A stretch of DNA of 44,858 bases from a virus (IMGVR_UViG_3300025154_000172:1-44858), one strand, 5' to 3'. Positions 1,769 through 44,445 are shown, counted from the first letter of the stretch. Translations and numbers: made by a program. The notes: generated by a model not told the origin, from the letters alone.

Positions 1769-2305
1769 ATGGCAAGGAATTTTAATAGGCTGATGAAAGA
1801 GGAACACGAATATAAAAAGAAGCCTAACTGAAAGAATGATACAGGCAGCCCAGATAAATACAAAGAGGAATACTGTATAAAGATTATAGAATACTTTAAA
1901 CTAAGCCCATACGAAGATAAAGTATCATGTACAAGCTATAATGAGAAAACATGAGCAGAAAAGGAATATATTAAATCACGACCAGTCGATTTCCCTACGA
2001 TAGAATGATTTGCGTCAAGTATTGATGTATGTGTTGACACTTTAAACGAACGGTGTAGAAAATATAAAGAGTTTTCCTACGCACATAGAAAAGCAAAGCA
2101 ATTACAAAAAGAGATACTAATTAAGAACTGACTAAACTGACTATATAAAGAATGATTTGCAAAGTTCGTGGCAATAAACTGTTTCCCTGATATGCAGGAT
2201 AAGATAGTAGAGGATATAAACCAGACAATAGACTTCAACTTAGATGGTAAGAGCATACGTGAGTTGGAAGAATTAAGAAAGCAAATACTAAGTAGCAAGA
2301 AGTAA
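1769..2305 (+). CDS. terS: Terminase small subunit
   Basis: 178 aa DNA-packaging subunit that recognises phage DNA and hands it to the large subunit. Recognised by the small-terminase pattern: DFPTIEGFASSIDV around residue 75-90 (helix-turn-helix region), LNE[W]CRKYKEF at about 93-103, then AHRKAKQLQKEILIKNGLNGLYKEG and AKFVAINCF. The bracketed W (codon CGG at 2051) falls where the family has tryptophan. Six TGA codons fall at glycine sites such as EGFAS, NGL.G and KEGF. The gene sits far from the large terminase at 13204, with the tail genes between. Confidence 0.8.
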
Positions 2306-2332
2306 TAATTTTAATTACTAACTAAAGTTATT

Positions 2333-3250
2333 TTGGCAACAACTTTATCGGATCTACGCACACAATGCTACGAGCTTCTAAGAGAAGAAGAGAACAGCTC
2401 AGCCTACTCATATACCATAGTAGACCAGATGATAAACTCAGCTCAATTAAGGATCTGTACTGGAGCTTGCATAAACCCTTTGACTAAGGAGATGGTAGCT
2501 AAGGGCGACTTACCGTTCATAAACACTGATTATTTCTACTCAAGTGTCGGTGACATCACCCTAACTGCTGACGCGACCGTCTGAGCTACTTCCTTATCAG
2601 CGACAACCACAAACTTTGCTTCTTCAGGGAAATTATATATAGCAGGGAACATAATAACCTATACATGAAAGACAGCTAGTACGTTCACATGAGTGACTGG
2701 GGTACTTTTTGCGTTCAAATCAGGTGAGAGAGTAAGTCAGGCGTTCACGCTACCGACAGACTTTGCGAGCATAAAGAATGTGACATATAATAATAACTAC
2801 AGGATGGAGTCAAAGGAGTTTGACGATATATTCGAGGAGCTGAATAAGCTGAAAGGTAGGAACTACGGAACAAGCGAGTACAACCCTGACTATAATAATA
2901 CCAACCTATTACCGACGTTCTATACTATAAAGGATGGTACGTATCTAATAATATTCAATGTAAATAATACAGGGGACATGATCAGATTGAGATACGAGAA
3001 GCTACCTACAACAATGAGTGCAACCACAGATACAGCGACAATAAGCAATGATATATACGCCAAAGGCACTATTCTATATTTAGCGGTAGGAGAGTTATTG
3101 TACAATAGATGAGAAGAGGGCAGAGCAGGCGAACTATTGAACTTTGCGTATGGGCAATTGAGAGAGATGTTCAAGTTTTACAACAACGCCAGCTATGAGA
3201 GTTTGAACTGAAAGCAGTATAAATGTTGAAAATGAAGATTAAATATATAA
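2333..3250 (+). CDS. Head-tail adaptor / tail tubular A-like protein, 305 aa
   Basis: TTG start, chosen because the frame opens directly into LSDLRTQCYELLREE, typical of podoviral adaptor proteins that cap the portal (T7 gp11 and P22 gp4 type). There follow YTIVDQMINSAQLRI, a beta-rich middle with Thr/Ser repeats, and a helical C terminus (LLYNRGEEGRAGELLNFAYGQL) like the protomer-protomer helices of such rings. TGA codons occur throughout and would break the frame into fragments under the standard code. Assignment rests on layout between the small terminase and a nozzle-like protein as well as sequence feel; no invariant motif is available. Confidence 0.6.
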
Positions 3251-3252
3251 AT

Positions 3253-3273
3253 AAGTCAAGGATTTTTTGACTT
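3253..3273 (+). terminator. Hairpin after the adaptor gene
   Basis: AAGTCAA (3253-3259) pairs with TTGACTT (3267-3273) over a 7-base loop, three bases after the stop. There is no clear T-tract, so it may be a processing or stability hairpin. The remaining 110 bases before the next gene are AT-rich; TTACAT-N15-TATAAT (3356-3382) lies just before the next start. Confidence 0.45.
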
Positions 3274-3383
3274 TGGCTTATAATACATAAAGTCATCGCC
3301 TCTGCACGAGAGAGAAAAGTTGTCTTTAGGTAATAATACTACAAATATCACATAATTACATTTTACTTATTTATGATATAATA

Positions 3384-4964
3384 GTGTCATATCAGGAAGC
3401 AAAGCGAATAGATATGTGAAGTGAAGATGGACCTTTCTCGAAAGGATACATTGACAATACACAAAATTTATTTCTAATGGACGGTGCAAGTCCTTATTTA
3501 AGAAATTGCAGACTAGATGGTAACTCAATAATACAAAGACCATGACATTGATTATTCGCTACCCTAACAGCAGGAAGCTATCCGAAAGGGATAGGCGGTT
3601 ATCTAAGGACTACAGCAAGCAATGATAGGTTGGTGGTTCGTCACAATATCGATGCTACGCATAAATTGAGTACCATAACAACTGCAGGAGTAACAGCAGA
3701 CATTTTGACTGACTCCAATATATCCAGTGATGCAAGGATGTTTTTCCAGAATGTAGGGGATGTTATATATTGTATGAATTGAGTAGATTATTTTGGGAAA
3801 CTCAATGGTACAACATATACTGTCCCTAGTACAGGGGTAAGTAATTTTGCTCCATCGTTTTCGGTCATCTTCAATTCTAGTCATTGGGCTAGTGGATGGA
3901 GTACTAACGCTAACAAGGTATATAAATCTGTCTGAGATAACTACGAGGACTTCAATTCAACAGGATCGGATACATTCACATTTGGTGAAGCGCTTACATG
4001 ATTATGTGCGAACAACGAGGCGTTATTCTATTTCACTAAGAGTACAATCAGTGTGACAGGTACAGGCGATATAACAGACACAGCATGAACTATAACGTAT
4101 GTAACAAGACCGCTAGAGGTTAAGGAGGGGTCAGTAAACCACGCAAGCATAGTATCAGCAGGGAATATGATATATTTCTTAACACCATCAAATAAACTAG
4201 GGATAGTGACTAAGGGTCAGAGCAACGAGTGATTTGAGGTACAGGAGCTGTCCGAAAGAAAATATGCAGGTATAAGCACAATACTTAGTGGACTAGCTGT
4301 AGACCAGTCAGACTCATTTGGATATTACCTACCTAAAGAGAATATCATCAAATGGTTTGTAAAATCAGCGGGGTCATCAATCAACGATATATGTATAATC
4401 TATGATATAGGGAAGGACGCATTCTTGGTAGACGATGGTAAATATTTTTTTGGTGGGCTTTTTTTCAAGGGTGCTAACTATACTATAAGTATGGTAGAAC
4501 CCAAAGTATATCAGGACGAGTATGGGAACGATGACGAGGATGGGGCGATAGGGTTCGAGTATCGGACAAAGGAATACTATATAAGTGATCCTACATATAA
4601 GAAGATACTACGAGAGAGCAGGACACTACTGGATATAAATGAATTAGCGAGTTTAACACAGGAGATATGGATAGATGAAGCACAGGCGGATACAAAGACA
4701 GTGGATTCAGATAATATCACTATAAGTGTGTGAGGGATAGGAACAGATCCAGTGTGAACATTCGCTATAGGAGAAGATGGATGATGAGAGGATACAGACT
4801 ACCAAGAGATTTACATCCTAAGAACTAAGGGCAACTTAAATAAAATAGGTAGAAAGGTGCAGTTCAGATATACAAACCAAGTAGTAGGTAGTAAGGTAAG
4901 ATTGAAGAATATCTCAGCTAAAGTAGAAATCAAACCTGAGCTAAGCAGTAACCTCACAACATAA
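3384..4964 (+). CDS. Tail nozzle-like / stabilisation protein, 526 aa
   Basis: GTG start chosen because MSYQEAKRIDMG leads straight into the conserved-looking FSKGYIDNTQNLF; ATG at 3414 is the alternative. The protein then shows ASPYLRNCRLDG and RPGHGLFATLTAGSYPKGIGG, and a long series of beta strands with APSFSVIFNSSHWASGW. This layout resembles P22 gp10 and T7 gp12 proteins: beta-propeller tail tube or nozzle proteins whose first part lists the initial residues of virion-bound DNA-stabilising factors. The position right after the adaptor fits. Twelve or so TGA codons, e.g. RPGHG and DYFGK-adjacent sites, are needed for full length. Family assignment is inference. Confidence 0.6.
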
Positions 4965-4991
4965 TTATTTATCATATAACAATTTCTAAAG

Positions 4992-6563
4992 ATGACAGCA
5001 TGACCGTTTCAGACATGATTTAAAACAACATTAGCTGCTAAATTAAACCCAGCTGTTACAACAATAACGTTAGCAACAGCACCTACAGCTACGACAGGTA
5101 GGCTTTATCTAAAGAACTGAACTCAAGAAGAATGGATAAGTTTTACTGGTGTTAGTGGTAGCACATGTACAGGGCTAACTAGAACATTGAGTCAAACAGC
5201 TGATCCAGCAACAGCAGGTACAGGGCTGACATGGATAGCAGGTACAAAAGTAAAACTAGTACAGATGCACGACCAGTGCTGGAATTCAGCAGAAACTGAG
5301 ACAATTAGTGGAATAAAGACATTTTCGGGTGCTAATACGCATAGTGGTAATAACACATTTACAGGGACAAATACATTTTCTAGTACAAGTAAAGCGACAC
5401 TGAATTTACAACAAGTAACAACAACTCAAAGAGATGCGTTGACATGAGTAGCGAATGGAACGATAGTATATAATACTACGACATGAGAGCTGAACCAGTA
5501 TATAGGATGAGCATGGAGCGCTGTCGCAGCAGGAAGTACACAGCCTGACGGTAGTACAACAGTTGCAGGTAAATTTGAAGAAGCGACAGTAGCAGAACAA
5601 GGGACAGCTACAGCAACGGGTTCAACAGGAGCTAGACTTGTGGTAGCTAACGCCAACCTAGTAAAGACCTCAAGTGGAGCATGAGACGAGAACAAAGTCC
5701 CGGTATTGAATTCTAATGGACAGCTAGCCAACAGATTTACAAGTAAGATTGGCGGGACATGAGCAGATTGAGCACAAACAGATGCTGATTTAACACTTAC
5801 TTGAAGCGACAACACAATCATAACGAAGAATTTTACATCACGAACAGCAGGAAGCGTAGCAAGGACTTGTACTATAACTCCTGCAAATTGTGTTGTACAT
5901 ATAAAGATTAAATGAGATGCTGATTTTACTAATTGGACATTCAATTTTACTGGTAAATGATGACCATGATGAGCAGGTTGATCTTGATTTTCTTCTAATT
6001 GAACAGCATGAACAGTAGCAAGTGTATTGTATCAATCAACAAGCAATGGAGCTGGAGGGTTATGAGCTTGAAATACTGGTTGATCAGATACTACGGCGTG
6101 AGGTGGTGGAGCATGATGTTGAGCTAGTGGTACAACAACTGGATGATGAGCTGGTTGAGTAAGGATGTATCCCGATATAATATATATACAGAACAATAGA
6201 AGGATATATATGTCAGCTTGATGAGGTTGAGGATGAGGTTGAGCTTCTTGATGAGATGCTTGAGCTTGAGGTGCAGGATGATGAGCTTTGATCATAGAAG
6301 TATGGGGTAATTTAACTATGAACAATGGTTCAACGGTGTTTAGTTTATGATGAGTAGATTGAGTGGCATCTTCTTGAGCCTGAAGTTGAGGATGAGGTGG
6401 TGGTTGAGGATCATTGGTAATATTATATAATGGCACATTAACTTGAACATATCAGACATTAACTATCTCTTGAGGATCAGGGGGAGCTGCATGAGCACAA
6501 TGAGATGTGTGAGGAGCTGGCTGAGTATGATTATCAGTAATAGAGCAGAGCATAACACGATAA
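4992..6563 (+). CDS. Glycine-rich receptor-binding tail protein, 523 aa
   Basis: N-terminal about 100 residues look like the virion-attachment domain of phage tail proteins (AVTTITLATAPTATTGRLYLK, then EEWISFTGV and TGLTRTLSQ). The middle contains Thr/Ser repeats (FSGANTHSGNNTFTGTNTF). From residue about 315 on, the protein is built of glycine-rich runs such as GGPGGAGGSGFSS, separated by short beta segments (RMYPDIIYIQNN, ALIIEVWGNLTMNNG, SLVILYN). This recalls polyglycine-II adhesins at the tips of T-even-like long tail fibres (S16 gp38 type). About 54 glycines are TGA, more than in any other gene here, so under the standard code this is pure fragments. Likely binds the host surface. Confidence 0.7.
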
Positions 6564-9401: not shown

Positions 9402-12400
9402 ATGGTAGATTTATGATTCTTGCAAGGGAAATGACTTCCGCAGAAATGATTCCCACAAATGCAGACACAAGATACAACAAAAACACAGCCACTACCAATA
9501 AAGATGCAGTCACCATTTTCTGGTATATCCTGAGTAAATAAGCCAACGATAGGAAGCCAATTCTATCAGCCTAAGTGAGCAGAACAGACACAAGTAAGTA
9601 ATATGAAACCAGAAGTTAAGGCAAAAATAAGCAAAGAGACATGAATTTGACAACCACAGATATCTGAGAATATACCAGTACAGAATGAGATGTGAGCTAC
9701 ATTCAAGAATATAACTTTGGATCAAGAGAACACATTAAAAACAAGATTAAAGCAAGATTTCCCTGATTTAGTACCAGAAGCAAGACTAGCTAAAGCACAA
9801 GAGATAGTAAGTTGATGGGAGACCAAGTGATTAGTAAAACCAGCAGAGACAGAAGCAGTAATGCAAGGTTGAGTAAAAGGTTGAGCAGCTAGACTTTGAG
9901 GCACATGATGAAAAGGTGAACGAATAAATCCAATAGGTAAGACAGTAGAGGAATTAGATAACCAAATCCAAAAGATAGGTGTAGTAGATTTTACTGCTGA
10001 TAGGGAGACAGCACTACAGCAAAGGATAGCGACACTTACACCATCAGAATTACAGGATTATAAACAGGAACGAGAGGCGTTAAAACAGAATACCCCTAGA
10101 ACAGCTAATCTATTCCAAAAAACAGTAAAAGGGAAGACATTAGTATGACAAATGTGGAATGTAATAACATGAGATACCAAAGATTTACCACAAGAAGAAG
10201 CATTTAAGAACTTCGTAGAGGAACAAGAAAAATCGTTTGTAGATCAGATGGTAGGAGTGGGGACAGAATGACCTAAATTTGCTAATATGATGGCTAATAT
10301 TCCATGAAGTGCATTAAAGACTATCAGTGCGGTAGCTAGAGGTATGACAAATCCTGTGGATACTATGGTTTGATTATATAAATTGATAGCTACTCCAGAA
10401 TGAAGACAGATGCTAGGCGAAAGATATGGTAGTTGGGAATGATTTGCTAAAACATTAGAATCTGATCCTGTTTGAGTAGCTAGTGATATACTTACAGTTG
10501 TTGAATGAGGTGCGAATATAGCTAAAATGTGAGCTAAAATGGCTTGAGCGACAACTACGGCAGCTAAGATAGGTAAATTTGCTAAAACAGCTTGAGCAGC
10601 AAGTGATTTATGAGTAAGGAATATATTACCTGTCGTAAAAAGTAAGATATTGTGAACGACAAAATGAACTCCTGTATTAAAACAAGTAGTTAAATATTCA
10701 GTAATGGCTACAGAACCATTATCTTTTTTGACTGAATGAGCTAAAGCAGTTAAAGGTAAGTTACCCAGTGCTGAAGACACCCTACAGAGAATGAATAGAC
10801 TTACTAAGTGAGAACAAGAGAAGTTCCAGCAACAACAAGGTAAGAATGTAGGAGTATGGTTGAATGAGAGATGAATAGTTGATACTCCATCAAATACAGT
10901 AGCAAAATTAGGAGAATATTTTACGGAGAATAAGGCTAAGGTCGATGAATGACTAGAGAAGATACAAGGTAAATATACAAATGAAGATATAAAACTTATG
11001 TCAGATGATACAGTAAGGTACGCAGATAGTACAAGAGATCCATGACTAAAAAGAATGCAAGAACTTAATGCTAAAGCAAATTGAGAATGACTAGAGATGA
11101 AAGAAGTAAATGAACTAAAGAGATATTTTGAGCAAAAGAATAAGTTTAGTTATGGTAGAGATTTAACAGCTTGAGAGAAGACAGCATGGGCTACTAATGT
11201 AGATACAGCAGTAAGAGAACGACAGATGAAAACAGCAGAAGAAAATGGATTTGGTAACCTAAGAGAAATGAATAAGGAAACACAGTGAGCTAAATTCATC
11301 ATGGATAAACTCGCAAAGAATGAGAACGGTAGATTAGGGAATAACGCCATAACTATCACAGATTGGATAGTCGCAGCACCAGCAATGGTAGAACCAAGTC
11401 TTTTAGCTTGATTAGTAGCTAAGAAGGTATTTGGTAGTAATTGGTTTGCTAAGAACTATGCTAAGATCATAAATAGGATAAACTGACATAAAAATATAGC
11501 GAATAAGGTAGCAGACTTACAAACGATAAGTAAGATACAGGACGAGAAGGCGTTTCAGAAATGGTTAGATGAAGGTAAACAACAATCCAACCAGAATACT
11601 ATAGCCAATAAATCATTATCAACTAAAATTCCAGAAACTAAATGATTGATAACTAAAAAACAATCAGATATAAAACTTAATCAAAAGGTAAACACACAAA
11701 CTAAATGATTACCAAGTCCTGAGACAGTAACACCGTCAAAGATGGGTACACCACAACAACCTATACCATTAAAATGACAAGTAAGTAAAGATATAGCACC
11801 TACAGGTAGATTAAGAAAAACTGTTTGATATAAAGACGCTCCTATGATATGAGATATGACTAAATTATGAAAAATTACTGATATTAGACATTCTTGATGA
11901 TGATTTCCTAAATATGAGATAAAAATAGAATGATATCCATGATATAAAAAAATAGAAGATATTGGATGAGTACATGAACCGAAACCTCTTAAACCTAAGA
12001 CAGACTCAGTATCTGATTTCGCCAAAGAGATGGAATCAACAGCACCTAAACAGACGGAAGGTAAAGTAAATAAAGAATGAATATGAACATCAAGGAAGAT
12101 GGCTATGGACGCTATATTAGAAAATTATGGTATAAAGAGTATAGATGATCTCCCCAATGATATAGCTAAAAAAGTTGTAGAAGCGGCAAGAAGTAGAAGT
12201 ACAAAGATGGAGGCAGAAATAGAAACATTACTTAAACCATATAAAAAAACTTTATCTTCTAAACAAACAAATGCTTCAAGCAATCCTAGTAGTAATAGCA
12301 ATTCTCTTAATCCTAAGGTTCAGTGAGAAGCTCCAGTAAAGAAAGCACCACTACAGGAGAAGATAGTCCAGCCAGTAGTGAGAGTGAAAGCTCCTGAAGA

Positions 12401-12842
12401 ACTTTATCATACTTCAACACAAGAAATCTGAAAGCTTACTGATGATAAGGTGCTACGAACCACGCCTGATAGTAAATATACGTTAAAATATGGCAAAGAA
12501 TGAAGTAGGAATACATATAAAGTCAGTTCTGAATGATTGAATATATTAGATTGAACATCTAAAAAATGAATAGACATAATGGAGGGCATAAACAAAAAAT
12601 TATGAGATAAATGATTTTCTGCTGGTGTTATATCAGACGACTGAAAGGTTATTAGTTTTGTTCTTAAAGATAAGAATATAGTAGCAGAATTAAAGAAGAT
12701 GTGATATGATTGACTAAGGACAACGGAAAGTTCTTTGAAATGATGAGCAGAAAGTGTTTGAATAATAAACCCAAGTAAAATAAAATGAATGGAAGCCACC
12801 AAGACTAAGTGACTCCCTACTAAGAGTAAAGGATTGAAGTAA
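9402..12842 (+). CDS. Giant virion protein with C-terminal ADP-ribosyltransferase-like domain, 1146 aa
   Basis: The longest gene. N-terminal half is helical; residues about 290-460 hold Ala/Gly-rich amphipathic helices after NPVDTMVGLYKLIATPEGRQ and DPVGVASDILTVVEGG, a pattern common in ejected internal virion proteins. The last about 150 residues read ELYHTSTQE, LWTTPDSKYTLKYGKEG, then KKMGYDGLR and ESVGIINPSKIKG. That order (LYHGT, a TP..YA..Y segment, GYDGl, E..v.NPS.Ik) is that of phage polyvalent ADP-ribosyltransferase domains with His, Tyr and a late Glu as core residues. If correct, the protein would modify a host target after injection. Linkers between are Lys/Pro/Gln-rich. More than seventy TGA codons are in frame. 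Confidence 0.7.
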
Positions 12843-13076: not shown

Positions 13077-13216
13077 TGCCAGTAATGAAAAAGAAAATGA
13101 AGGCCATGAAAAAGGAATATTGAGCTAAGAAATGAGAAAGTGTATATTACGCTATGGAGAACAAGATGAAGAAGACGTGAATCCCTTTAAAAAAGAAATC
13201 CAAATGAAAGAAGTAA
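13076..13216 (+). CDS. Small lysine-rich protein of the YGAKKGESVYYA type, 46 aa
   Basis: Starts on the A of the preceding stop. Very basic (about one third Lys), with KKEYGAKKGESVYYAMENK, the signature of tiny lysine-rich phage proteins often found beside packaging or capsid genes. The glycines in YGAKKGES are TGA codons. Role unknown; nucleic-acid binding is plausible from charge. Too short for routine gene calls, and it overlaps the large terminase start by 13 bases. Confidence 0.65.
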
Positions 13217-14859
13217 TCCTAAAAAGATTAGAGACAATAATCAATGCTAACAAGGATGTAAGGCTTCAGCAAATTGAGATTTCACTTTGTAAGCAAGACA
13301 TCCTATACTTTTTCAATACTTATTTATATACAGATAGAAACAAGACTATATACTGAGATGAGTATCCTGATGTACTTCCATTCCTATTGTATGAGTTTCA
13401 AGAGGAATATGTAAACGAGGTATGGGAAAGCATAACAGAGGGTAATAAACCAGTAAATGAAAGAAAGCTAGATGTTCTTACAAATATATTTGTAGAGAAG
13501 TCAAGGCAGATGGGTATTTCTTGGGTAACTGCTGGGATATTCTTGTATGGATTCTTATTCCACAAGCACAAATACACTATAATATCAAGAACTGCAGAAG
13601 AGGTAGATAAAAGTTGAGATATGGATTCGATGTTTGAGAAGTTAAGATTTATGATAAGAAATCTTCCTGACTGGATGTTGCCCAAAGGGTTCAGCAAAGA
13701 ACAAGGCAAAGATAAGACAAACGCATATATGAATATTACTGATCCTGAATGAACGGCTAGTATAACCTGAAAAACAGCTAATCCTGATGCGGGAAGATGA
13801 GGAACAAGAAACGCAATATTCATGGATGAAATGGCGTCAATGGCTTATGCACACGAAATAGATATGGCGGCTGGTTCTAATACACCTTGTAGGATATACA
13901 ATTCTACTCCTAATGGAGAATGAAACGAGTTCTATCGTAAAAGGAAGTTGGCTATGCCAAGTAAAGACGAATACGGGAGCATAAAGAAACCTGAGATTAA
14001 ATGACTTAGGTATCATCGAAAAGAGCATCCTTTGTATGATGAAGCATGGTATGCTTGGAAGACACAAGGTATGACTAAAGAGGAGATTGCAAGAGAACTC
14101 GAGATAAATTACAATGTAGCTATCAAATGAAGAGTATACCCTGAATTCAATGTAGAAAGCGAGAAATTAGAGTACGATATAAATAAACCATTGTATATCG
14201 CATTAGATAATTCCCACGGTTGATCAGACCCTAACGCTATAATAGTAATGCAACCAGAAGATCAGTATATGAATATAATTGATTCAATAGAACTGTTTAC
14301 TACACCACAGAACTGTGCAGAATTTTTATCAGGGCAACCAAGATTTGAGCTTACTGATAGCCAGTTGATATTCCTAGAAAGATATAAGAAGTATAACCGA
14401 CAAAAAGCAATCTTCATAGCAGACCCATACGACACTATGTCGGCAATGTGAAATAGTACGATATTAGAAGATTATAGGAAAGTAGGGATCAATTTATTCA
14501 TACCAAACGAAAGGAATAAGGAAAGACAAATAAGCAAGACAAGAACGAATATATACAAAGTAAGATACAACGATCATTGTTTGGATTTCGCTAGTGCTAT
14601 AATGAACAGTAGGTATCCAGAGGTTAGGGAGTCAAGCCAATGAACTACACCTCATTTATTGCCAGTACATAACCAGTTTTCGCATTATAGGACAGCACTA
14701 GAATATATGGTAAACTATTACTTGGAGAACCAGACACCAAACAAGAAGAGAATAGCAGACGATCCAAGACCTCAGAGGGACATGATAACATGAAAACTAT
14801 TCTCTAGGATTCAACCACAGAGACAACACCGTAATTATATTACGTGAGGTTTGAGATAA
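13204..14859 (+). CDS. terL: Terminase large subunit
   Basis: 551 aa packaging ATPase and nuclease. Walker A-like KSRQMGIS at residues 99-106, Walker B IFMDEMA with Asp208-Glu209 preceded by NPDAGRGGTRN, coupling motif NSTPNGEG, and RNase H-like nuclease segments [21 protein letters not shown] and CLDFASAI. The ATG at 13204 is chosen over 13132 because the earlier stretch is the shifted reading of the lysine-rich gene. RYH[W][11 protein letters not shown] uses CGA for a tryptophan at a site where terminases have W..HP..d..W. Glycine TGA codons sit inside the Walker B region (R-G-G). Confidence 0.93.
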
Positions 14860-14926: not shown

Positions 14927-16828
14927 ATGGAAGAGCAACATGAATATCCAAATTACAGACCTACAAGCAAGGAAGCTCAGACTATCGACAGGATCGATAC
15001 AAGATTTAACGATATGAGAAATACTAGAAGGAACGTAGATAAAGACCGATGAATTTATCAGCAAATGATAGACGCGGTCTATACTCCTTATCCTGACGAA
15101 AGGTCGTCATCTGTTGTGCCATTGTCTTCATCTATTATCGAGCTTTACGTTGCCGATTGTATGAAACTACAGACTGAGTATAACTTCAGAGGTGAGACTT
15201 CTAAACATAACACCCAAGCCAAAGCTCTGGAATATGTATGGAAATACGATTACAGGAGAAACAATCGCAAGAAGACGTTTATTGATAACGAGTACATAAC
15301 AGCAGGGTTTGGTACTTCCGTCATTTATACTGGTTATGAATCATATACTAAAGAACAAAGCAACCCAATTATAGGAGATGATATGAGTATTGATTGGGAG
15401 AAGGAAACTATCACTGAAGTAAATATCATAGTAAAGAATATAGATATAAGAGATTACTATGTAGATGACCAAGCTATCGAAGGGATCGAGGATGCAGTAG
15501 ACTGTATCTATGACCAATGGATAGCGTATGATAGGTTCAAGAGTTTTAAGACCAACCCATTTTATAAAAACATAGATAAGGTAAGTTCTACCCAATATAG
15601 TAACGAGAACAGACCATATACAGTAGAAGAACAACAGTCTAAACAAGGTAAATTTGTTAAACTAAGACATTACTGGAACGTAGAGAATGACGAGTATATC
15701 GTGGTAGCGAACGGAGTGATAGTAAGAGAACATCCAATGATAAGCACAATAGATGGCAAGAAGGCTTTACCGTTTGTTATTAGGAGACTAGGTAAAAAGA
15801 ACAACAGTATATATGGTAGAGGTATTTGTGAAGCACTTATGATGTTCAATTCAGAAGTAAACAACCTAAGGGAATTACTTATGGATGGTATCAGAAGGAG
15901 TAATACTCAAGTCTTGGCTATCGGGAATGGTTTGAGCTTCAATGGTAGGAATTTCAGCTATGATAACGAGATATTGGAGTTTGATGGCAACCTAGCTCAG
16001 AACTTCCAGCAATTGAGTGGAAACCCACCAAATCAGGCTATATTCAGTTATATATCACAACTTTATAAGGATATAGCAATCTATGTAGGTATAGACATCC
16101 AGAACATCATAGGAAACTCACAACAGACAGCATACCAAACAGAGGTACAGAGGGAAGCTAGCCAAAAGAGGATAAATGTATGGCTAGGGAATAGAGACTC
16201 AGACTTTGAGAGGTTTGCTAATCTATACAAGGATTTACTACAAAGATACTTCCCACTAAAGACAGCAGAGGGGATATACAAGACCATAGAGATAGAAGAC
16301 GAGGAATTGATAGGCGAAGGTGAAACAAAGAGATTCAGGAAGAAGAAAGGCAAATCAATGTTTGAGGTGACACCGGAGATGTTAAGAGGGGATATATATA
16401 TTGATGTCTATACTAATTTTTCATCATCAACATTGAACGCAGTAGCACAAGAGAACAAGATGAATTTCTTCCAGAAAGCACCATTGATAGCACAATGATA
16501 CGCAACAGCTAAACAGATGTGAGCAGACTTAGAAAGCGTATTACCATTAAAACAGGCTATAAACGATCTAGCAGCAAGCATGAATATAGAGACTATTGGT
16601 ACAGATGACGATTCTGACGTAAAAGCAGCTAAGAATAAGTTAATGAGCGAGCTACAGACTATGTTACAGAGAAGCCAATGAACGCTACAACAACCTTGAG
16701 CTGAGGTAAGTGCTACTACATGAACAGAACAAGCTCCACAGCAACAGCCACAACCACAGGAAACGCAAACCATGAAGCAACCAAGCCAATTTTTACAAGA
16801 ATGAATGCCACAAGCACCAAAACTTTAA
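14927..16828 (+). CDS. Portal protein
   Basis: 633 aa; the dodecameric ring through which DNA enters and leaves the head. Recognised by the portal-like flow: an N-terminal helix, QQMIDAVYTPYPDERSSSVVP, a central region with RGICEALMMFNSEVNNLREL, the helical stem ending in SQQTAYQTEVQREASQKRI, and LGNRDSDFERFANLYKDLL. The C-terminal 70 residues are Gln/Pro-rich and probably disordered. TGA is sparse in the first 500 residues and frequent in the tail. Placed between large terminase and the scaffold/capsid genes, as usual. Confidence 0.88.
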
Positions 16829-19004: not shown

Positions 19005-19502
19005 ATGTCAATGGGGAAAGCAGTGACCGCGTTAAACACGCCAAACACTACATCAAACTTCCTACCTGCTGATGGTAATTGGGAGCTTAGATTGCTTCCT
19101 ATGAAAGCGTCTTTGGCGATGGTCGAAGGAGTAGCTATCACAGCAGAAACAAATGGAGCAGATGTTACAGGATATTACAGAACACAAGTAGCAGTAGAAA
19201 ATCTTAATGGTGATGACACTATGGGGATTCTCGCTGAACCAATTGCAACAACTGATACAGATTATGCAACAGCAGGTAAACTCAAGGGAGTATATGTTCC
19301 TATGACGCCAGAAGCTGAAGCTTACTTTACAGTAGGTGCATGAACATTCACAGTAGCTGACGTTGGGAATACAGTTGAATTGCACTCTGATTTCAAATCA
19401 TTGGCAGTAGATACTGAAGGTAAAGGAGCAACCATTACTGGATACATTTCTTCTACGAGAGGGAAATGTAAATTCAATATGCCTAAGACAGAAGTTGCTT
19501 AG
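19005..19502 (+). CDS. Capsid decoration or minor head protein candidate, 165 aa
   Basis: Ala/Thr/Gly-rich, beta-rich protein (LNTPNTTSNFLPADGNWELRL) directly before the major capsid gene. Size, composition and place fit a head decoration or cement protein. Only one TGA, and the gene has its own T-rich leader (CTTTTATATTTTAAT) as the capsid gene does, suggesting strong expression. No diagnostic motif. Confidence 0.55.
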
Positions 19503-19546
19503 TTTAAACTAATTGAATAATTTTTATATTTTAATTTAAAAGAAAG

Positions 19547-20566
19547 ATGGCTACAACACCAGTTTTAAATTCGTTGAGTCTTTCTCAATATACTGATCTT
19601 ATCACTAGAAGTTTCGACAATGGGTTGAAATCACTAGTATCAATGATGAGAAAATCAGGGATCGTAGTAGAAAATCCAATGCCTATGCATACAGGAGATA
19701 CTAGAAGATTCGGAGAAAGATTACACATGACACAATACGCTTCAAAAAGAGATGAAGGTTCAGCCTCTTCTTTGGCTTCAGTACAATATGGATACGAAAA
19801 AGATTTGACTATCTACACTATATCTTTGGCTGTTTCTATTACTGAAAGAATGAGAAGTGCGGGGAAAAATCAAGAGATTTTGGATAAGATTACTAAACTA
19901 GTAAATATCTGTCCTGAAACCATTGATCTTGACCTTACACACAGATTGACGTTCGCTACAGCTACAACTTACACAGACAGAGATGGAGATTCTATCAATA
20001 TCGCAGTAGGTGATACTTTGGCGTTGCTTTCTGCTGTTCATACTTTGACAGGTTCAAGCACCACTTACAGCAACATCATCTCTGGTAACCCACAATTCTC
20101 AAAAGGGACATTAGAAAACGCAGAGAAGTTGTTCGCTGAAGAGACATTCGACAATCTTGGGATCAAGATGGCGATGAAAGGTAAAGTAATCATCACAACT
20201 GATGACCCTAATACTAATAACGCTGTTAGAGAGCTATTGGGGGCTTCTGCTGATATTACTTCTAGCAACTCAGGGACTATCAATGTTTACAAGAACGGAT
20301 ACAAGCACGTTTCGTTACCTAGATTAGCTACAACAGCGGCTGGAGCAGTAGATTCAACAAAAAGAAAATACCGGTTCTTGGCTTCTGAAGATGATTCAGA
20401 TTTCTATCTATCAGTATTGAAAGAGCCTTATCTTAAGACTCCATCAGCTGGTAACAACGGAGAAGACCTCCTTACAGAGAATCGAACCTACACAGCTTCC
20501 GCTACAATAGGTATGACGATTGTCACTGGACGCCGAATTAAGGGATCCACGGGATTATGAACCTAG
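19547..20566 (+). CDS. Major capsid protein
   Basis: 339 aa, HK97-fold size, in the expected place after portal and scaffold candidate. Shows the N-terminal helix LSLSQYTDLITRSFDNGLKSLV, the beta extension with MHTGDTRRFGERLHMT, the spine-helix region NPQFSKGTLENAEKLFAEETF, and KGKVIITTDDP. Only 1 of 25 glycines is TGA, three codons from the end; the rest are GGN. Preceded by AATTTTTATATTTTAATTT. The C terminus extends past that TGA to GLGT under the phage code. Confidence 0.85.
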
Positions 20567-22164: not shown

Positions 22165-23091
22165 ATGGCAAGAACTTATTCAGAAGAGGTGGCGTTGCTC
22201 ACATCAGCTATCCCAGCTTTAGCTGCTTATGATTTTGACGGTGACGCTTTAGATATAAGTGGGAATAGCGAAGACGCCACTGTGACAGGAGCGACACTAT
22301 CGACTGATAGACGAGGGATAGCAAATAGATGTTATCTATTAGATGGCACAAACGACAAGATCGCTTGTGGTAACATAGGTACTAATCTCAGTGTCTCTAT
22401 GTGGATAAATGTTGTTGATATAACTGCAACTGACCAGATATTGGAAGGTTCGGCAAACGCCAAATACATACTATCAACGGCAGGAGCTTTGACATCCGAT
22501 GAATTCACTGATTTTTATGTGGACTGAGTGGCTAGTACAACTTTGACAGCAGGTCGACATCATTTGGTGGCAACTAAAACGACATGATTAGCTATGAGTG
22601 CGGCGACCATAGGGCTGATAGACGCTTCTTACGGTAATTTCTATGTGGATGATGTTTATTTCTTCCCAGTAGAATTGACTGCAGCACAAGTCCTATCAAT
22701 CTATAACCAGCAAAGGATACAGGGCGCTCCAGTAACACACACACTAGTGAAGTTCTCAACACCATATTTAGTAAAAGATTATATGCACGAGATACTGACT
22801 TTGAGTTCAGCAGGGACTGGAACGTTCACTATAAAATTCTGTGGTAGTATGTCAGACACAGCTCCAAATTTCGCAGCAGCACAAAGTAATACGAATAGAC
22901 GAGATTATGTAGATATAAAAGACTATCAGAGTTGATCTAGTATAGATGGCGATACTGGGGTAGCGTTTACCGCTGATGATGTCAGGATATTTGAGGTCAA
23001 TACTAACGGACTAAAACGGATCTGATGAATTCTGACCAGCTATACTGCAGGCACAGTAAGTCTAAGACTTCAATGTTTCGGAAATTCTTAG
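22165..23091 (+). CDS. LamG-like (concanavalin-fold) protein with C-terminal duplicated module, 308 aa
   Basis: Residues about 20-190 form a laminin-G/concanavalin jelly roll: YDFDGDALDISGN, the TD[R][W]GIANRCYLLDG segment, SVSMWINV, then G[W]HHLVAT and NFYVDDVYFFPVELTAAQV. The [W] in WHHLVAT (codon CGA at 22555) is the family's conserved tryptophan. The C-terminal 115 residues duplicate the protein at 21745. LamG domains in phages bind sugars or surface proteins, so this is probably a tail or capsid adhesin. Confidence 0.8.
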
Positions 23092-28868: not shown

Positions 28869-28945
28869 TATTAAGAGGGGCGTATACGACTGCTATTGTT
28901 ATGGTCAGCTATACGGGTATGACCCGAGTCCCTCAATAGTCTTTT
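28869..28945 (+). ncRNA. Three-way-junction RNA with T-tract
   Basis: TATT-AA-GAGGG (28869-28879) pairs with CCCTC-AATA (28930-28938) with an AA bulge. Inside, GTATA (28882-28886) pairs with TATAC (28910-28914) and GGGT-ATG-ACCC (28915-28925) makes a second hairpin. TCTTTTTAG follows, so the element could terminate transcription ahead of the peptidase gene or be a small RNA. TATAAT at 28864-28869 precedes it, without a matching upstream hexamer. Confidence 0.5.
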
Positions 28946-28964
28946 TAGATTTTTATCATATCTG

Positions 28965-29795
28965 ATGACAGATTTAGAGATAAACGATTGAGCACGAGAT
29001 AATCCCACCAAGCAAGATTATCAGTTTCAAGCATTAGAAGACATCAAACACGAAGACCCTGAATATGCTGAATGATGAGCTAAACAACGACCTAAAGAGA
29101 AGCTTATAGTACAAAATCAATGAGCAAATCCTTCATGCACTTGCTATTCTAATGGGCATATAGCGAACGCACTAAATATCCTAGAAGATATAGAGCTATT
29201 AGAGCATAGACCGCAAGTACAGCCATGAATACGACGGGATGAGTTCTGCAAACTAAGGAATAATTACAAGACATGAACATCTATCCAGACTATGGCTCAG
29301 TTTTTCAAAAAAAAAGGTATAATTGAGTGATATGTATCGATAGCGAACTCGGAGCAGAATATCGTAGCTAAAATGAAGAAAGCGATAGACAACGGAAACT
29401 TCATGTGTAGCTGAAGCAGTGACGCTGATTGGGGTATGATAAAAAAGACTGGCGAATACACACTAAGGACTGATTGAAAGTTCGTATGACACGCACGATG
29501 TTATGTCGATTACTGATCAGACTACTTCTGGGCGTTGAATAGTTTCGGACCTAATCGGGGGATACATGGCGGATATTTCAAAGTGCCATTCGATATGGTA
29601 GAGGGTACATACTCTAAGCTATGTATGATAGATAAGAACGATAGCCTATACTTCCAGAAACTTAAAGATAGAGAGAAGGCTAAACAGATGATAGCGATAG
29701 CTAAAGAGTTGTATACCACAGGAAACCAAGAAGTGAAAACCTATTTTGACGACATAAAGCTATCAGCTAATATGGATAGATTGTATGGTAAATAA
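28965..29795 (+). CDS. Papain-like cysteine peptidase, 276 aa
   Basis: Shows the papain catalytic set in order: NQGANPSCTCYSNGH with oxyanion Gln52 and nucleophile Cys58, GHA[W]CYVDYG with His176, and ALNSFGPN[W]GIHGGYF with Asn192. The NSxGxxWGxxGYF pattern is diagnostic of the family; its second Trp is encoded by CGG at 29556. Twenty or so TGA glycines. Directly after the holins and small membrane proteins, it may serve in lysis, or process host or virion proteins. No signal peptide seen. Confidence 0.8.
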
Positions 29796-30690: not shown

Positions 30691-32499
30691 ATGAATGAAT
30701 TCGTAAACGCTATGTTTGAGATATATCCTAGATTCGCTGAATGTACAATTCAAACTTTTGATGACAATAAAGAAAGAAAAAACCAATCTCTTGCTAGAAA
30801 AATTATAAACACAGAAGAAAATTATCAAAAGGTTGATTTATTAAATACACAATGAGCGGGTATATTCTTCTCTGTAAATCCTATGATTGAATGAAAAAGG
30901 GATAAAGAAAGTGTTATATGAATATCTAGTCGGATATGTGAGATAGATTGAATGGATAAGGATTTACAAAGAAAACTTATCGACAATTGTCCTTTGAAAC
31001 CATCAATGATAATCGAGAGTAATTCATCATATCACTTGTATTGGTTTGCTAAAGATTGAACAAAAGAGAAACGATATGATATAGCTAATGGATTGAGAAA
31101 TTACTTTGATTGAGATCCTGCCGTTGTAGATATATCAAGAGTGCTTAGATTACCTTGATACAATCATTTGAAGGATGAGATAAAGCCATACCCTATAACT
31201 ATTTTAGAGATACAATGAGAACAATTCACAGAAGAGCAGATGATTTTAGCTTATCCGAATAAATTATCACTTACAGAAATTAAACAATCACTAATAATAA
31301 AAGACAGTCAAGCAAAAAGAGATTTATGATGAGATTATTATCGGGATAGGGTAAAAAATATGAATACTCAAAATATGCTAGAGGAAATTAGTGGTACGCA
31401 GTTTGTATCTAATGATCAAATATCGTTTAGTAAAAATAGTAATTGAACAGAGCAAATTATAATAAACTGAAAGAGTACCTGATGTTGGATAGATAAAAAT
31501 GGTAAGATTGGTAGTTCTGCATGATGATGACCAAACTGGACTAATCGGGTATTTCGATATAGTACTTGTACTGGTAAGGAATTGGCTCAATGGATTAACG
31601 AAAAACATCCAGAGATGGTAATACAAAAAACAGTACAGAAAAAAGAATCTAGTAAATCTAAAGATATTGTAGCTGAAGAGAAAACACAGATAGATTTTGA
31701 ATCAGTTACTCCATTTACTCGGGGACTACCTATACTTGATGATAAATTTTGAAGATTCTGACTTAATCAGTTTGTTGTTACAATATGAGAAAGTCAGAGC
31801 TGAAAAACTGAATTTACGTTCTTCCAAGCAAGACAGAATGCTAAATTATGATATAAAGTTTGTTATATCTGATTAGAGATGACAAAAAAAAATATGATAA
31901 TAAGGATATGCCAAAAAAGAGCGTGAGTCACAAAAAAGGAACGAGACAATAAAACCATATCACAATCCCAAAAAGATATAATGAGACAAAAATATGATGA
32001 GTTATGGGATTATCCTAATCTTGATCTAGTTTATCTAGCAAAACCCACGATAGAAGATATAAAATCCACGATCAAAGAAAAACAAATGCAATGATATGAA
32101 CTATTTTATCTAGATAATATGTGATTTATTGTTTGAGATGTATCAGAGATAGAACTCACAACACTTATATCTAGGGAATTAAAAGAATTAACAAATACAC
32201 AGCCTATATCAATAAATTTATTACATCATTTTAATAAATGAAGCTCTAAAGATAGGATATGACCAAGGGGCATGGCTAGTATGAGGAGTAGTTGAAAGAT
32301 AGAGAATGATGCTGATTATGTTATGCAAGTATGGAGAGATTTAGATGATGATATACCAACAGAAGACAGAAAGATTGTAGGTATATATCTACAAAAAGAT
32401 AGAGTGTGGTGAGATCCGAGTAACTGTAAAATAGAGTTTGATAGAGCAGAATATGTTCCATATATTAAAACTACACAAGAAAATAATTTACCATTTTAG
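30691..32499 (+). CDS. Primase-helicase fusion, 602 aa
   Basis: N-terminal archaeo-eukaryotic-type primase: ISS[W]ICEIDGMDKD (acidic motif), KPSMIIESNSSYHLYWFA (Ser-His motif), DPAVVDISRVLRLPGYNH. C-terminal RecA/DnaB-like helicase: Walker A GESQSGKT at residues 366-373 (both Walker glycines are TGA), LFYLDNMGFIV as Walker B, LLHHFNKG, PRGMASMRSSGKIENDADYV and LQKDRVWG. Synthesises primers and unwinds the fork. This is the genome's central replication enzyme; no DNA polymerase gene is visible. Confidence 0.88.
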
Positions 32500-33132: not shown

Positions 33133-33222
33133 GCACCCTAACACAAAGAGCCTTAGAAAATAAGGCGATCTCTAATACAGGAATGTGTTGGGTGCAGGTC
33201 GCTTTATGTTCTAAGGTTTTTT
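33133..33222 (+). ncRNA. Structured phage RNA 2 with interleaved helices and terminator
   Basis: Helix A: GCACCC-T-AACACA (33133-33145) with TGTGTTGGGTGC (33184-33195), one bulged T. Inside, GCCTTA-GAAAA-TAAGGC (33150-33166). Helix B: CCTTAGAA (33151-33158) with TTCTAAGG (33209-33216), extended by TAAGGCGA/TCGCTTTA (33161-33168 / 33199-33206), then TTTTTT. B uses bases of the internal hairpin, and helix A's 3' strand lies inside B, so the A and B states compete. Same A-B-A'-B'-T layout and promoter as RNA 1, without sequence similarity. Confidence 0.72.
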
Positions 33223-33226
33223 GATT

Positions 33227-33880
33227 ATGGAAGAGTTGCTATATATTATGTATATGGATGAACCATGAATGAGATGTATTTATAAAATATGAGTTTCTAC
33301 CATAGATAGAGTAGAAAGAAGGGTCCAAGAAGTACAGTGTTGAAATCCATTCAAAGTAAAAATATTAAAAACATTTGTAATTAAATCAGCGTGAAGATAT
33401 GAATATATGCTTCATACAATACTTAGAAAATTTAGGCTAGAATGAGAACGATTTGATTTATGAGCAGAAATGTTAGATTATGTATTTAGGCAAATGGATA
33501 TACGAAGAAATATTTATACATATTCTACTAAATTGTCAATTATTAAATGAGACAGAGATATAAACAAGATATATAATGGTAAACCTATAGTAAATTATGT
33601 TTCAGTAGATACTTATGAACAAGATATACAAGATTTAAGAAAAATGAATATAAATGAAAATTATATTATAGATCGTATACATAAAATAGAAGAAAAAAGA
33701 GATAAATCGTATGATAAACATAAAAAGAAAGAAAAAAAAATATATAAAAAGAAGAACTTATATAAGTATCTAATAAGGAATAATAGAAACTTAATTGTGA
33801 AATGTTTTTGGTCAGAAACACCAGCTTATAGTTATATGAATAAAAAGTTAAAAATGGATTTATTTATTAGATGAGTATAA
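33227..33880 (+). CDS. GIY-YIG superfamily protein (T5orf172/MUG113-like), 217 aa
   Basis: CIYKIGVSTIDRVERRVQEV, NPFKVKILKTF, RYEYMLHTILRKF and LEGE[W]FDLGAEML follow the T5orf172 order: KIG..., R...lq, Np..., E..lH, GEWF. The Trp75 of GEWF is codon CGA (33449). Residues 140-200 form a very basic helical region (KKKEKKIYKKKN). Such nucleases are mobile or repair-associated. Five bases follow RNA 2's T-tract before the ATG, so this gene is the natural target of any switch. Confidence 0.78.
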
Positions 33881-33937: not shown

Positions 33938-34243
33938 ATGTATTTTATTACTAAACGTAGAACTTTGCAAAATTATATCAAAGATCGATTAAAATCTAGG
34001 GATAAGGAAATAGGGGATAAACTTATCTGTGAGTTTGTGTGATGTAATAAAGATGTTTCGGATATACATCACATCTTGTGTAGTTTTAGGTGATCACGCA
34101 AAAGTGCATCTGATGGATCTGATTTGATATGATTATGTAGAACACACCATACATGGGTACATAATCACAATAATTATGATAATAGACTTTTACTTCTTGA
34201 TCGTGTAGCATGAATTATGCAAAATATAAGGCTAAATCAATAA
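33938..34243 (+). CDS. HNH endonuclease, 101 aa
   Basis: ICEFVGCNKDVSDIHHIL with paired cysteines, then GSDLIGLCRTHHTWVHNH, is a compact HNH/zinc-binding nuclease: C..C, H-H core, second Cys and HH..H. In phages such proteins assist packaging or act as mobile nucleases. ATG at 33938 is the first start after the in-frame TAG. The gene overlaps the next by 34 bases. Confidence 0.8.
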
Positions 34244-34620
34244 TCATAGACTGATATAAATTTGATAGTACTATAGAGTGAGACTATTATCTATATCTAA
34301 AAAATAAATGAATAGATGAATTTACTATACATCCTAAATATGAACTACAACCTAAGTTTGTAATATGAGACAATAAAATCATGGCAGTGAATTATATGGC
34401 GGATTTTAGTATAATGGTAGACTGAAAGGAATGTGTAATAGATATAAAAGGTATGGCAACAGAGACAGCGAAGCTCAAACGCAAAATGTTTATGTATAAA
34501 TATCCTGATAAAGAACTACAACGAATAGTTAGATATAAAAAAGAACGAGTAGACTATTTCGATAATATTAAACGTAGAAAGGAGGCGAAAAAACTAAAAG
34601 TACAAAAAGTCAACCAGTAA
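34210..34620 (+). CDS. DUF1064-type phage nuclease (restriction-endonuclease-like fold), 136 aa
   Basis: NYAKYKAKSIIIDGYKFDSTIEGDYYL, FTIHPKYELQPKF, NYMADFSIMVDGKECVIDIKGM and LKRKMFMYKYPDKEL match the DUF1064 pattern; Glu, Asp and the D.KG pair form the PD-(D/E)xK metal site. Members are thought to be Holliday-junction or recombination nucleases. Glycines at DGYKF and EGDYY are TGA. Starts inside the HNH gene. Confidence 0.78.
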
Positions 34621-34980: not shown

Positions 34981-34981
34981 G

Positions 34982-38975: not shown

Positions 38976-39143
38976 ATGAAATTTTCACTCACGAAAAACA
39001 CTAAAACTTTATTAGGTGCGACACTATACCAAATCAAAGCAGAGATGTCATTTGGTTCTATATCTAAATGAGAACTTTGATGATGGATAGAGAAAGAGGA
39101 GAACTTGTCACAAGAAGATAATGCTTTATTATTTAATGCATAA
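38976..39143 (+). CDS. N-terminal fragment of a GELGGWIEKEENLSQ-type phage protein, 55 aa
   Basis: MKFSLTKNTKTLLGATLYQIKAE followed by SKGELGGWIEKEENLSQ is the start of a known family of phage proteins (usually far longer, with hexapeptide-like repeats after NLSQ.GNAWV). Here it stops after DNALLFNA, right where a homing endonuclease gene begins. A matching C-terminal remnant follows that gene. Possibly a truncated, interrupted gene. Confidence 0.6.
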
Positions 39144-39144
39144 A

Positions 39145-39561
39145 ATGGAACTACGAGAAAATATAAAATGATTTGAATGACTTTATCAAATAAGTTCTAT
39201 TTGAAGAGTAAAATCATTAGATAGAATTATATCAAGATGTAATTGAACAAAAATATCAGTAAAAGAAAAAATACTGAAAAATAAAAAATCATATAAATGA
39301 TATGGAATTATTTGATTAAATTTAAATGGTAATACCTTTACGAAATATATACATAGATTAGTTTCAGAAGCATTTATACAAAACTCAGAGAATAAAAAAA
39401 CCGTTAATCATAAAGATTGAAATAAATTAAATAATTCAATTAGTAATCTTGAACGAGCTACATATCACGATAATGCAATACATTCATACCAAAAGTTATG
39501 AAGAATCTGAACTAACCAATATAAAAAAATAAAGACTATAAACCATCAGAAGAAGATATAG
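39145..39561 (+). CDS. NUMOD4-HNH homing endonuclease, 138 aa
   Basis: KGFEGLYQISSIGRVKSLDR is the NUMOD4 DNA-binding module; IHRLVSEAF, TVNHKDGNKLNNSISNLE[W]AT and DNAIHSYQKLG form the HNH nuclease. The Trp104 of NLEWAT is codon CGA at 39454. Sits directly between two pieces of one former gene, typical of self-spreading endonucleases. TGA glycines at EGL, SIG, KDGN. Confidence 0.88.
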
Positions 39562-42388: not shown

Positions 42389-42390
42389 TG

Positions 42391-42537: not shown

Positions 42538-42542
42538 CTTGA

Positions 42543-42686
42543 GTGGATTTCAGTAAATCACTTCAAGACCTAAAATCCCTAGCACCAGTTGAACCGAAAG
42601 CATTACAAGCATTGATAGCTAAATATCAGGAACGACACGAAGCAGAACAGATGATAGATGCAATGGAGAAGTTCTTGAAGACCTAA
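42543..42686 (+). CDS. Small protein, GTG start, 47 aa (possible gene fragment)
   Basis: Reads SKSLQDLKSLAPVEPKALQ and ERHEAEQMIDAMEKFLKT. The LKSLAP...EAEQ order echoes LQSLAPAPAQPQ...MEAEQN in the protein at 40846, so it may be a duplicated fragment. Start is GTG at 42543 after an in-frame TAA. Confidence 0.4.
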   Translation: MDFSKSLQDLKSLAPVEPKALQALIAKYQERHEAEQMIDAMEKFLKT

Positions 42687-42715
42687 ACGCTTTACTTAGT
42701 TAATAGACTAGAGAG

Positions 42716-43213: not shown

Positions 43214-43241
43214 AATATCTTTATCCCTTTACCAACCTAAG

Positions 43242-43379
43242 ATGCTAAGCGACAAGAATAGCGAGAAGATGAAGCGAGAAAGAGATATATGGGATTGGAT
43301 AGTAATTGGATTTGATATAATATGGAGATGAATACTAATAATAATATTGTTGAGTATTTTATATTTATTATTTAGATAA
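43242..43379 (+). CDS. Small membrane protein, 45 aa
   Basis: Charged N terminus (MLSDKNSEKMKRERD) and a single span (WIVIGFDIIWRGILIIILLSILYLLF). Two bases separate it from the next ATG. Confidence 0.45.
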
Positions 43380-43380
43380 G

Positions 43381-43488
43381 ATGTCCAAACAAATAAAGAC
43401 TAGAGAGAAGATGAAGCGACTGTTACTATTGGTCGCTAGTATAAAAAAAATAATAAATGAAAATATTTGAACAGAAATAATTGAGTAA
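43381..43488 (+). CDS. Small basic peptide, 35 aa
   Basis: MSKQIKTREKMKRLLLLVASIKKIINENIGTEIIE, one TGA. Short and unproven; kept because of tight packing between coding neighbours. Confidence 0.35.
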
Positions 43489-43515
43489 TAATTTTTATCT
43501 CAATCATAAGGTACA

Positions 43516-43692
43516 ATGAAAATGAAGTTCCACGATAAGCCACTATATAATAAATGGGAACAAGATATAAAGAAACTAAAAGAGGATAACAAGAGGAGAA
43601 TAAAGATACTGAAAGCGACACTACCCAAAGCAACCTGTGAAGAAGAAAAGGAATATATAGAAAAAAGAATAAAGTTTTTACAATCTAACTAG
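43516..43692 (+). CDS. Small charged protein, 58 aa
   Basis: MKMKFHDKPLYNKWEQDIKKLKEDNKRRI..., helical, no TGA. Preceded by AGGTACA, a string repeated before the next gene, which may act as a weak ribosome-binding site. Confidence 0.5.
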   Translation: MKMKFHDKPLYNKWEQDIKKLKEDNKRRIKILKATLPKATCEEEKEYIEKRIKFLQSN

Positions 43693-43697
43693 GTACA

Positions 43698-43895
43698 ATG
43701 GAGAAAAATGGAACTAGAAATATTTATTATTGTATACTAATGTTATGAAAATTTATAGCTAATATTTGACTTATTTCTTCCATATATTTTTATTTCAAAT
43801 ATAACTACTTCATCATAACTATTATATCTATAGTATTCTTTCTTGCAGTATTGGAAGTAACTGTAGAACTTTTATATGATTTGAAACATAACTAG
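43698..43895 (+). CDS. Two-span membrane protein, 65 aa
   Basis: Spans FIANIGLISSIYFYF and YFIITIISIVFFLAVLEV between short polar ends. Its leader AGGTACA repeats that of the gene at 43516. Could be a holin-like or superinfection protein. Confidence 0.5.
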
Positions 43896-43927
43896 AATGG
43901 AAACCTCAAAGACAGAGAAGAAGAACC

Positions 43928-44040
43928 CTCCGCAGTAACAATAAGCGGAGAGATATGGGGGAGGATGGTAGTGACGTCCACCGACCACGAGGGTAGTACC
44001 TCGCCTCCCCCAATTAAATTACATCTTGTCGCCTCCGACA
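43928..44040 (+). ncRNA. GC-rich three-way-junction RNA
   Basis: Three parts: hairpin CTCCGC (43928-43933) with GCGGAG (43945-43950); an 8-base helix GGGGGAGG (43957-43964) with CCTCCCCC (44004-44011) enclosing GGT-a-GTG/CAC-cg-ACC (43967-43986) and CGAGG-GTAGTA-CCTCG (43988-44003); and TGTCG-CCTC-CGACA (44027-44040). GC content is far above the surroundings. No promoter or T-tract seen nearby. A 13-codon frame (43897-43938) precedes it. Confidence 0.6.
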
Positions 44041-44076
44041 TAACATAAAGTTTTTACCTATTTACCTTATTATATT

Positions 44077-44445
44077 ATGGAAACAATTAAGATTGATGAT
44101 GTAGAGTATGTTAAATTATCCGACATACCTAAAACTAATACAAAAGCTAAAACAATGAAATGACTACCGTACGTGATGTGTAGAACTAATTCAGCGTGAG
44201 TATTTGCTGGATATTTAGAAAGCAGGAAAGGGAAAGAGGTTAAGTTATTAAAAGCAAGAAGGATGCGGTATCGAGATTGAGCAGCAAGTCTATCTCAATT
44301 AGCTACTGAATGAACAACTAAACCAGAGAACTGTAAATTCCCTTGCGAGGTAGAAGAGGTTGAATTGACTGAAGCGATAGAGATTATACCAATAACATCT
44401 AGGGCACAGGAAAGTATTTCAAATGTCCCTGTTTGGAAACAGTAA
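44077..44445 (+). CDS. DUF6948-type phage protein, 122 aa
   Basis: NSAGVFAGYLESRKGKEV, ARRM[W]Y[W]DGAASLSQLA, EGTTKPENCKFPCEVEEVELTEAIEI, and VPVWKQ match the family end to end. The bracketed tryptophans are CGG (44266) and CGA (44272); glycines of SAG, RDG-type and EGTT sites are TGA. Function of the family unknown; it is often found next to glycine-X repeat proteins, as here. Confidence 0.85.

Follow-up and report, generated by a model that had tools for sequence, protein, structure and literature searches.

Genetic codes seldom change at sense codons, and one proposed cause of altered codes is escape from viruses. The code of the Absconditabacteria we take to be NCBI table 37. In these bacteria (SR1), UGA is read as glycine and both CGA and CGG as tryptophan (Shulgina & Eddy 2021, PMC8629427); CGA and CGG are read by tRNA(UCG) and tRNA(CCG), and tRNAs consistent with the change have been reported. 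Clades with reassigned CGA or CGG have GC contents of 0.26–0.38, and the most advanced host has 30 CGA, 24 CGG and 35 UGG per 10,000 codons (PMC8629427). In the literature that we searched, phages that follow a sense-codon change of their host are known for AGG read as methionine only, where they are predicted and lack a cognate tRNA (PMC8629427). Phages of Gracilibacteria and Absconditabacteria read TGA as glycine and have been annotated with code 25 (PMC10746230, PMC13059738), a code in which CGA and CGG are arginine; these two codons are not discussed there. Other phages recode stop codons and carry suppressor tRNAs.

Here, we analysed a single IMG/VR virus record, IMGVR_UViG_3300025154_000172 (44,858 bases, GC 0.353), the whole of which we call the window. 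At a probability of about 90%, we consider it a near-complete tailed-phage genome, written in a code with TGA as Gly and CGA and CGG as Trp, free of tRNA genes and decoded by its host, probably a member of the Absconditabacteria. Since this code has already been described for Absconditabacteria (PMC8629427), the code itself is not new: TGA, CGA and CGG have the same meanings, and the window and these bacteria are both low in GC and encode Arg mainly by AGA, although here the code occurs in a phage without tRNAs. New here, and more interesting than the code, is a clade of TGA=Gly phages that is mixed for the meaning of CGA and CGG. The window resembles the AGG=Met phages in following a sense-codon change without a cognate tRNA, but differs in the codon, in the hosts and in having relatives with the old as well as the new codon meaning, which have not been reported for those phages (PMC8629427). 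It shares TGA=Gly with the phages annotated with code 25, one of which, RSA-ATP1, has four tRNA genes whereas the window has none. Like stop-recoded phages it uses a non-standard code; unlike them it also changes a sense codon, and no suppressor tRNA was found. Our literature search, with preprints and most subscription papers outside its scope, returned no report of a phage that reads CGA or CGG as Trp.

Gene content of the window

The two ends of the window have 148 of 151 bases in common, so the genome is probably close to complete and either circular or terminally redundant. When only TAA and TAG are taken as stops, genes for packaging, for head and tail proteins, for a peptidase, a primase-helicase and nucleases are found on the + strand; the 56 predicted genes end on TAA (36) or TAG (20), the gene calling itself having assumed these stops. 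The genes considered below are:

1769..2305, + strand, terminase small subunit; CGG at 2051
13132..14859, + strand, terminase large subunit; CGA at 14017 and 14398, both at Trp columns
14927..16828, + strand, putative portal protein; CGA at 15047, at a Trp column
19547..20566, + strand, major capsid protein (HK97 fold, from predicted-model matches); CGG at 20372, CGA at 20483 and 20534
22165..23091, + strand, structural protein with a LamG-like stretch; CGA at 22900, CGG at 23017; CGA at 22555 unconfirmed
28896..29795, + strand, papain-like peptidase; CGG at 29556 in N[W]G
30691..32499, + strand, primase-helicase (RepB primase and DnaB_C); seven CGA/CGG, conserved Arg as AGA/AGG
33221..33880, + strand, GIY-YIG-like (MUG113) nuclease; CGA at 33449
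34210..34620, + strand, DUF1064/Holliday-junction resolvase; CGA at 34522 and 34546
39121..39561, + strand, NUMOD4-HNH homing endonuclease; CGA at 39154 and 39454
44077..44445, + strand, DUF6948 protein; CGG at 44266, CGA at 44272

The terminase large subunit matches PHROG 5989 and PHROG 2. The product of 14927..16828 is named a putative portal from its place in the gene order and from a weak match to a PHROG head-tail adaptor. A family search with the capsid protein gave no match; its predicted model resembles capsids of phages as well as encapsulins (E about 1e-8, TM about 0.4) and reaches a TM of 0.75 with the best viral model. As judged from these model matches, the product of 19547..20566 is an HK97-fold capsid protein, and its presence together with a terminase places the window among the HK97-fold tailed phages (Caudoviricetes). 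Named phages gave no match in searches by DNA similarity with the window or with the capsid and portal proteins, and neither did a scan of the viral collection with the helicase. The junction of the window ends (1-103 and 44491-44811) holds a gene of Gly-Ser/Gly-Tyr hexamer repeats. The highest counts of in-frame TGA in the genome, 54 and 71, are found in a glycine-rich virion gene (4992-6563) and a long gene (9402-12842), respectively.

Codon meanings derived from alignment columns

We aligned the window genes to TGA=Gly relatives and to standard-code contigs and calculated log2-odds for each codon, masking CGA, CGG and TGA in the window and in the TGA=Gly relatives and counting only residues from unambiguous codons. 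The initial annotation had read CGA and CGG as Trp and suggested a Codetta-type tabulation; the tabulation bears this reading out, with CGA and CGG assigned to Trp, CGT/CGC, AGA and AGG to Arg, and TGA to Gly. For CGA (21 columns), Trp reached +62.1 bits, followed by Tyr at +9.2, with Gly at −44.2 and Arg at −51.2. CGG (6 columns, all six majority Trp) gave +32.6 bits for Trp and −12.4 for Arg, TGA +154.3 bits for Gly (120 columns), TGG in the same test +125.4 bits for Trp, and CGT/CGC +20.4 bits for Arg (11 columns from all relatives; the 6 in the standard-code subset do not decide the matter by themselves). Standard-code references alone yielded the same assignments for CGA, CGG, AGA and AGG (CGA, Trp +34.6 and Arg −25.5; CGG, Trp +23.0 and Arg −11.6; AGA, Arg +90.2; AGG, Arg +33.4 bits). 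In total, Trp is the majority residue in 19 of the 27 informative CGA/CGG columns; a location of these codons mainly at conserved Arg columns, for which we looked specifically, was found nowhere (0/27 majority Arg). When codons were shuffled among columns 20,000 times, at most 4 majority-Trp CGA/CGG columns were obtained. The eight columns without a Trp majority (Tyr, Phe, Glu, Val, Pro) amount to a share close to that of the TGG control, in which 20 of 30 columns are majority Trp and 10 are not. On the evidence of these aligned codons, the code of the window is shown to be TGA=Gly and CGA=CGG=Trp, with Arg encoded by AGA, AGG, CGT and CGC; its stops are TAA and TAG only.

Summed over six Pfam domains, profile scores were highest with Trp (383.7 bits), followed by Tyr (362.3), Phe (361.1), Leu (351.1), Arg (341.4) and Gln (341.2); RepB_primase and DUF6291 scored slightly better with Arg than with Trp, by 1.7 and 0.4 bits. 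The RepB_primase difference speaks for plain code 25, in which CGA and CGG would be Arg and the Trp motifs would have arisen by chance, as do database practice and a 2026 Absconditicoccaceae phage paper that annotates with code 25. The absence of any majority-Arg column, the Arg log-odds of −51 and −12 bits and the occurrence of Trp at three capsid sites in nearly all standard-code relatives leave this reading a negligible probability, and we rule it out on the column table. C-to-U editing of mRNA is known to convert CGG to UGG in plant organelles such as mitochondria, and with CGA and CGG as Arg in the DNA it would account for CGG at Trp columns. Editing is excluded for CGA because the edited codon would be UGA, which is Gly here; CGA columns favour Trp and disfavour Gly, and CGA outnumbers CGG by 63 to 26, so that we give this explanation practically no credence.

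Individual sites and protein families

The seven codons for which hallmark tryptophans had been claimed are CGA (39454, 33449, 22555, 44272) or CGG (29556, 44266, 2051), and the control arginines are encoded by AGG (KSRQ, PRGM) or AGA (ISRVLR, GRV..DR), as stated. Six of the seven sites gained independent support as Trp; the LamG site at 22555 was left unconfirmed, with no family match and a single aligned relative that has Asn there. Among 15 standard-code relatives, 10 have Trp at 22900 and 12 at 23017, two other sites of the same gene. Both CGA codons of the HNH gene fall on Trp residues of 1u3e, a homing endonuclease of solved structure, and the profiles for this gene score higher with Trp than with Arg (NUMOD4, 44.6 vs 38.6; HNH_3, 40.2 vs 35.8 bits). 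The papain-like site aligns to the NWG of ficin (weakly, E=0.0075), and PHROG 16701 scores 23.4 bits with Trp vs 18.8 with Arg. For the terminase small subunit (PHROG 3064, 74.6 vs 67.7 bits; GP3_package, 25.0 vs 20.3), position 2051 is Trp in a standard-code relative, as are both DUF6948 sites, where Trp was the best of six residues tried (108.6 bits vs 94.8 with Arg). The GIY-YIG-like nuclease gains 7.3 bits in Pfam (52.6 vs 45.3).

Further sites lie outside this set. Position 14017 of the terminase large subunit is Trp in 44 of 74 relatives, the remainder being standard-code contigs of distant families, and position 15047 of the putative portal is Trp in 13/13. The resolvase scores 112.7 bits with Trp vs 106.6 with Arg, and its sites at 34522 and 34546 are Trp in 1/3 and 1/1 standard-code phages; for the primase-helicase, DnaB_C gives 70.0 vs 69.4 bits and RepB_primase 32.3 vs 34.0. 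In the alignments, the clearest case for CGA and CGG as Trp is made by the capsid protein, which has no other Trp codon than its CGG and two CGA (20372, 20483, 20534), at which 29/30, 26/28 and 25/27 standard-code relatives have Trp.

TGA is scarce as a Gly codon in the capsid gene and nearby structural genes (19005-20566, 20662-21672, 23957-26296); it accounts for 1 of 25 Gly codons in the capsid gene and 1 of 16 in 19005-19502, and for 50–90% in many other genes. Unlike its use of TGA for Gly, the capsid gene does not avoid CGA/CGG for Trp (3/3).

Codon usage, decoding and host

The 56 predicted genes contain 63 CGA, 26 CGG and 83 TGG (47.8, 19.7 and 63.0 per 10,000 codons) and 460 in-frame TGA. 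CGA and CGG thus encode 89 of 172 tryptophans (52%, compared with 61% in the most advanced host), and counting them raises the Trp content from 0.63% with TGG alone to 1.30%. CGA is more frequent in the window than in every host of PMC8629427, all of which stay below 37 per 10,000. The phage therefore does not merely follow a sense-codon change, as half of its tryptophans rely on the changed codons. At least one CGA or CGG is present in 39 of the 56 genes, so the earlier warning that code 25 would mistranslate most proteins was justified: annotation of such phages or of Absconditabacteria with code 25 puts Arg for Trp, here at 89 residues.

A tRNA search of the window with ARAGORN and with Rfam, even at E=1, found none, and ARAGORN found none on 20 related loci. 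An unusual phage-borne tRNA for CGA/CGG that tRNA finders overlook has a precedent of sorts in the tRNA-Gly(TCA) of an Absconditicoccaceae phage; given the absent ARAGORN and Rfam matches, we reject it as highly improbable. Since no tRNA was found on the phage, host tRNAs must, we infer, read CGA and CGG as Trp: the phage would depend on host tRNAs with anticodons UCG and CCG that carry Trp, and about half of its tryptophans would have shifted onto these codons. Two tRNA pools could also compete, so that CGA/CGG would be decoded as a mixture of Trp and Arg or differently early and late in infection, and conservation would be compatible with minority misreading. We consider such ambiguity improbable, because Trp columns are spread between 2051 and 44272 over genes for packaging, head, tail, nuclease and DUF proteins, and CGA/CGG account for 35 of 83 Trp in the structural half and 54 of 89 elsewhere.

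By analogy of the genetic code alone, the host is most likely an Absconditabacterium. As the code alone points to the host and a Trp meaning of CGG has been predicted for some Gracilibacteria (PMC8629427), the code may be right and the host another lineage that shares it, such as a member of the Gracilibacteria reading both codons as Trp; among TGA=Gly bacteria, however, CGA=Trp has been reported for Absconditabacteria only (PMC8629427), and we regard another lineage as unlikely, though less so than the preceding alternatives. Scanning the genome collection for Absconditabacteria with a tRNA-Gly(UCA) pattern returned chance matches only. For phage contigs that otherwise lack a host assignment, the genetic code can serve as a pointer to the host.

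Relatives on either side of the codon change

Relatives were collected by IMG/VR scans with terminase, portal and capsid alignments, and their code class was derived from the same log-odds. The TGA=Gly relatives have terminases 47–63% identical to that of the window and form one clade, in which three code classes occur: CGA/CGG=Trp, CGA=Arg with TGA=Gly, and nearly devoid of CGA/CGG. L002 (CGA, Trp +13.7 and Arg −9.1; CGG, Trp +27.1 and Arg −15.3) and L003 (CGA, Trp +13.2 and Arg −14.7; CGG, Trp +15.5 and Arg −6.0) are Trp-coded; L004, too short for a decision of its own, was placed with L003 through its near-identical terminase, and L008 is tentatively Trp-coded (3 CGA columns only). L001 (CGA, Arg +46.2 and Trp −56.1) and L014 (Arg +27.7 and Trp −70.7) read CGA as Arg with TGA as Gly, as do the more distant L044, L101 and L103, the last with CGG also as Arg (Arg +20.4, Trp −24.9). 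L006 and L009 are nearly empty, with about 6 CGA+CGG per 10,000 codons. More distant standard-code relatives have the same capsid protein; L104 and L105, in which TGA is not Gly by log-odds, were handled as standard code.

Some close relatives thus read CGA as Arg, and one phage family straddles the code change; because these relatives retain the old meaning, it can be followed site by site how a virus crosses a codon change. Between the window and L001 (terminase 63% identical), AGR/CGY codons of the window face CGR of L001 16 times and CGR codons of the window face TGG 6 times, whereas CGR never faces CGR. In this codon alignment, the swap of CGR meaning is complete. The existence of CGA=Arg relatives and of relatives almost free of CGA/CGG suggests a route in which CGA would first be emptied of Arg; the genome would then tolerate either meaning of CGA, and Trp would fill the codon later.

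Gene trees

In the terminase tree the window pairs with L001 (support 100/99), whereas seven other genes joined group L001 with L014 (100/99) and L002 with L003 (97/99). In tree tests whose groups were chosen after the codes were seen, so that the p-values need caution, the terminase rejects the Trp-coded phages as one group (p=0.0004) and L001 with L014 (p=0.012), the capsid protein rejects the window with L001 (p=0.004), and the seven genes reject the window with L001 (p=0.005) and are compatible with a Trp-coded group (p=0.30). Because other genes reject the pairing of window and L001 found with the terminase, there was either gene transfer across the code boundary or more than one switch of the code. 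In the simplest reading, the terminase gene would have passed, in either direction, between Trp-coded and Arg-coded lineages with its CGA codons adapted; the alternative is at least two independent code switches. We lean towards the view that one TGA=Gly clade crossed the Arg-to-Trp boundary of CGA/CGG repeatedly or swaps genes across it, and that genomes emptied of CGA/CGG serve as the bridge. If so, a sense-codon change of the host is no lasting barrier to phages.

In the sister-group TGA=Gly phages L106, L107 and L108, CGA and CGG are also sparse (10–23 per 10,000 codons), so that the thinning of these codons extends beyond the clade of the window.
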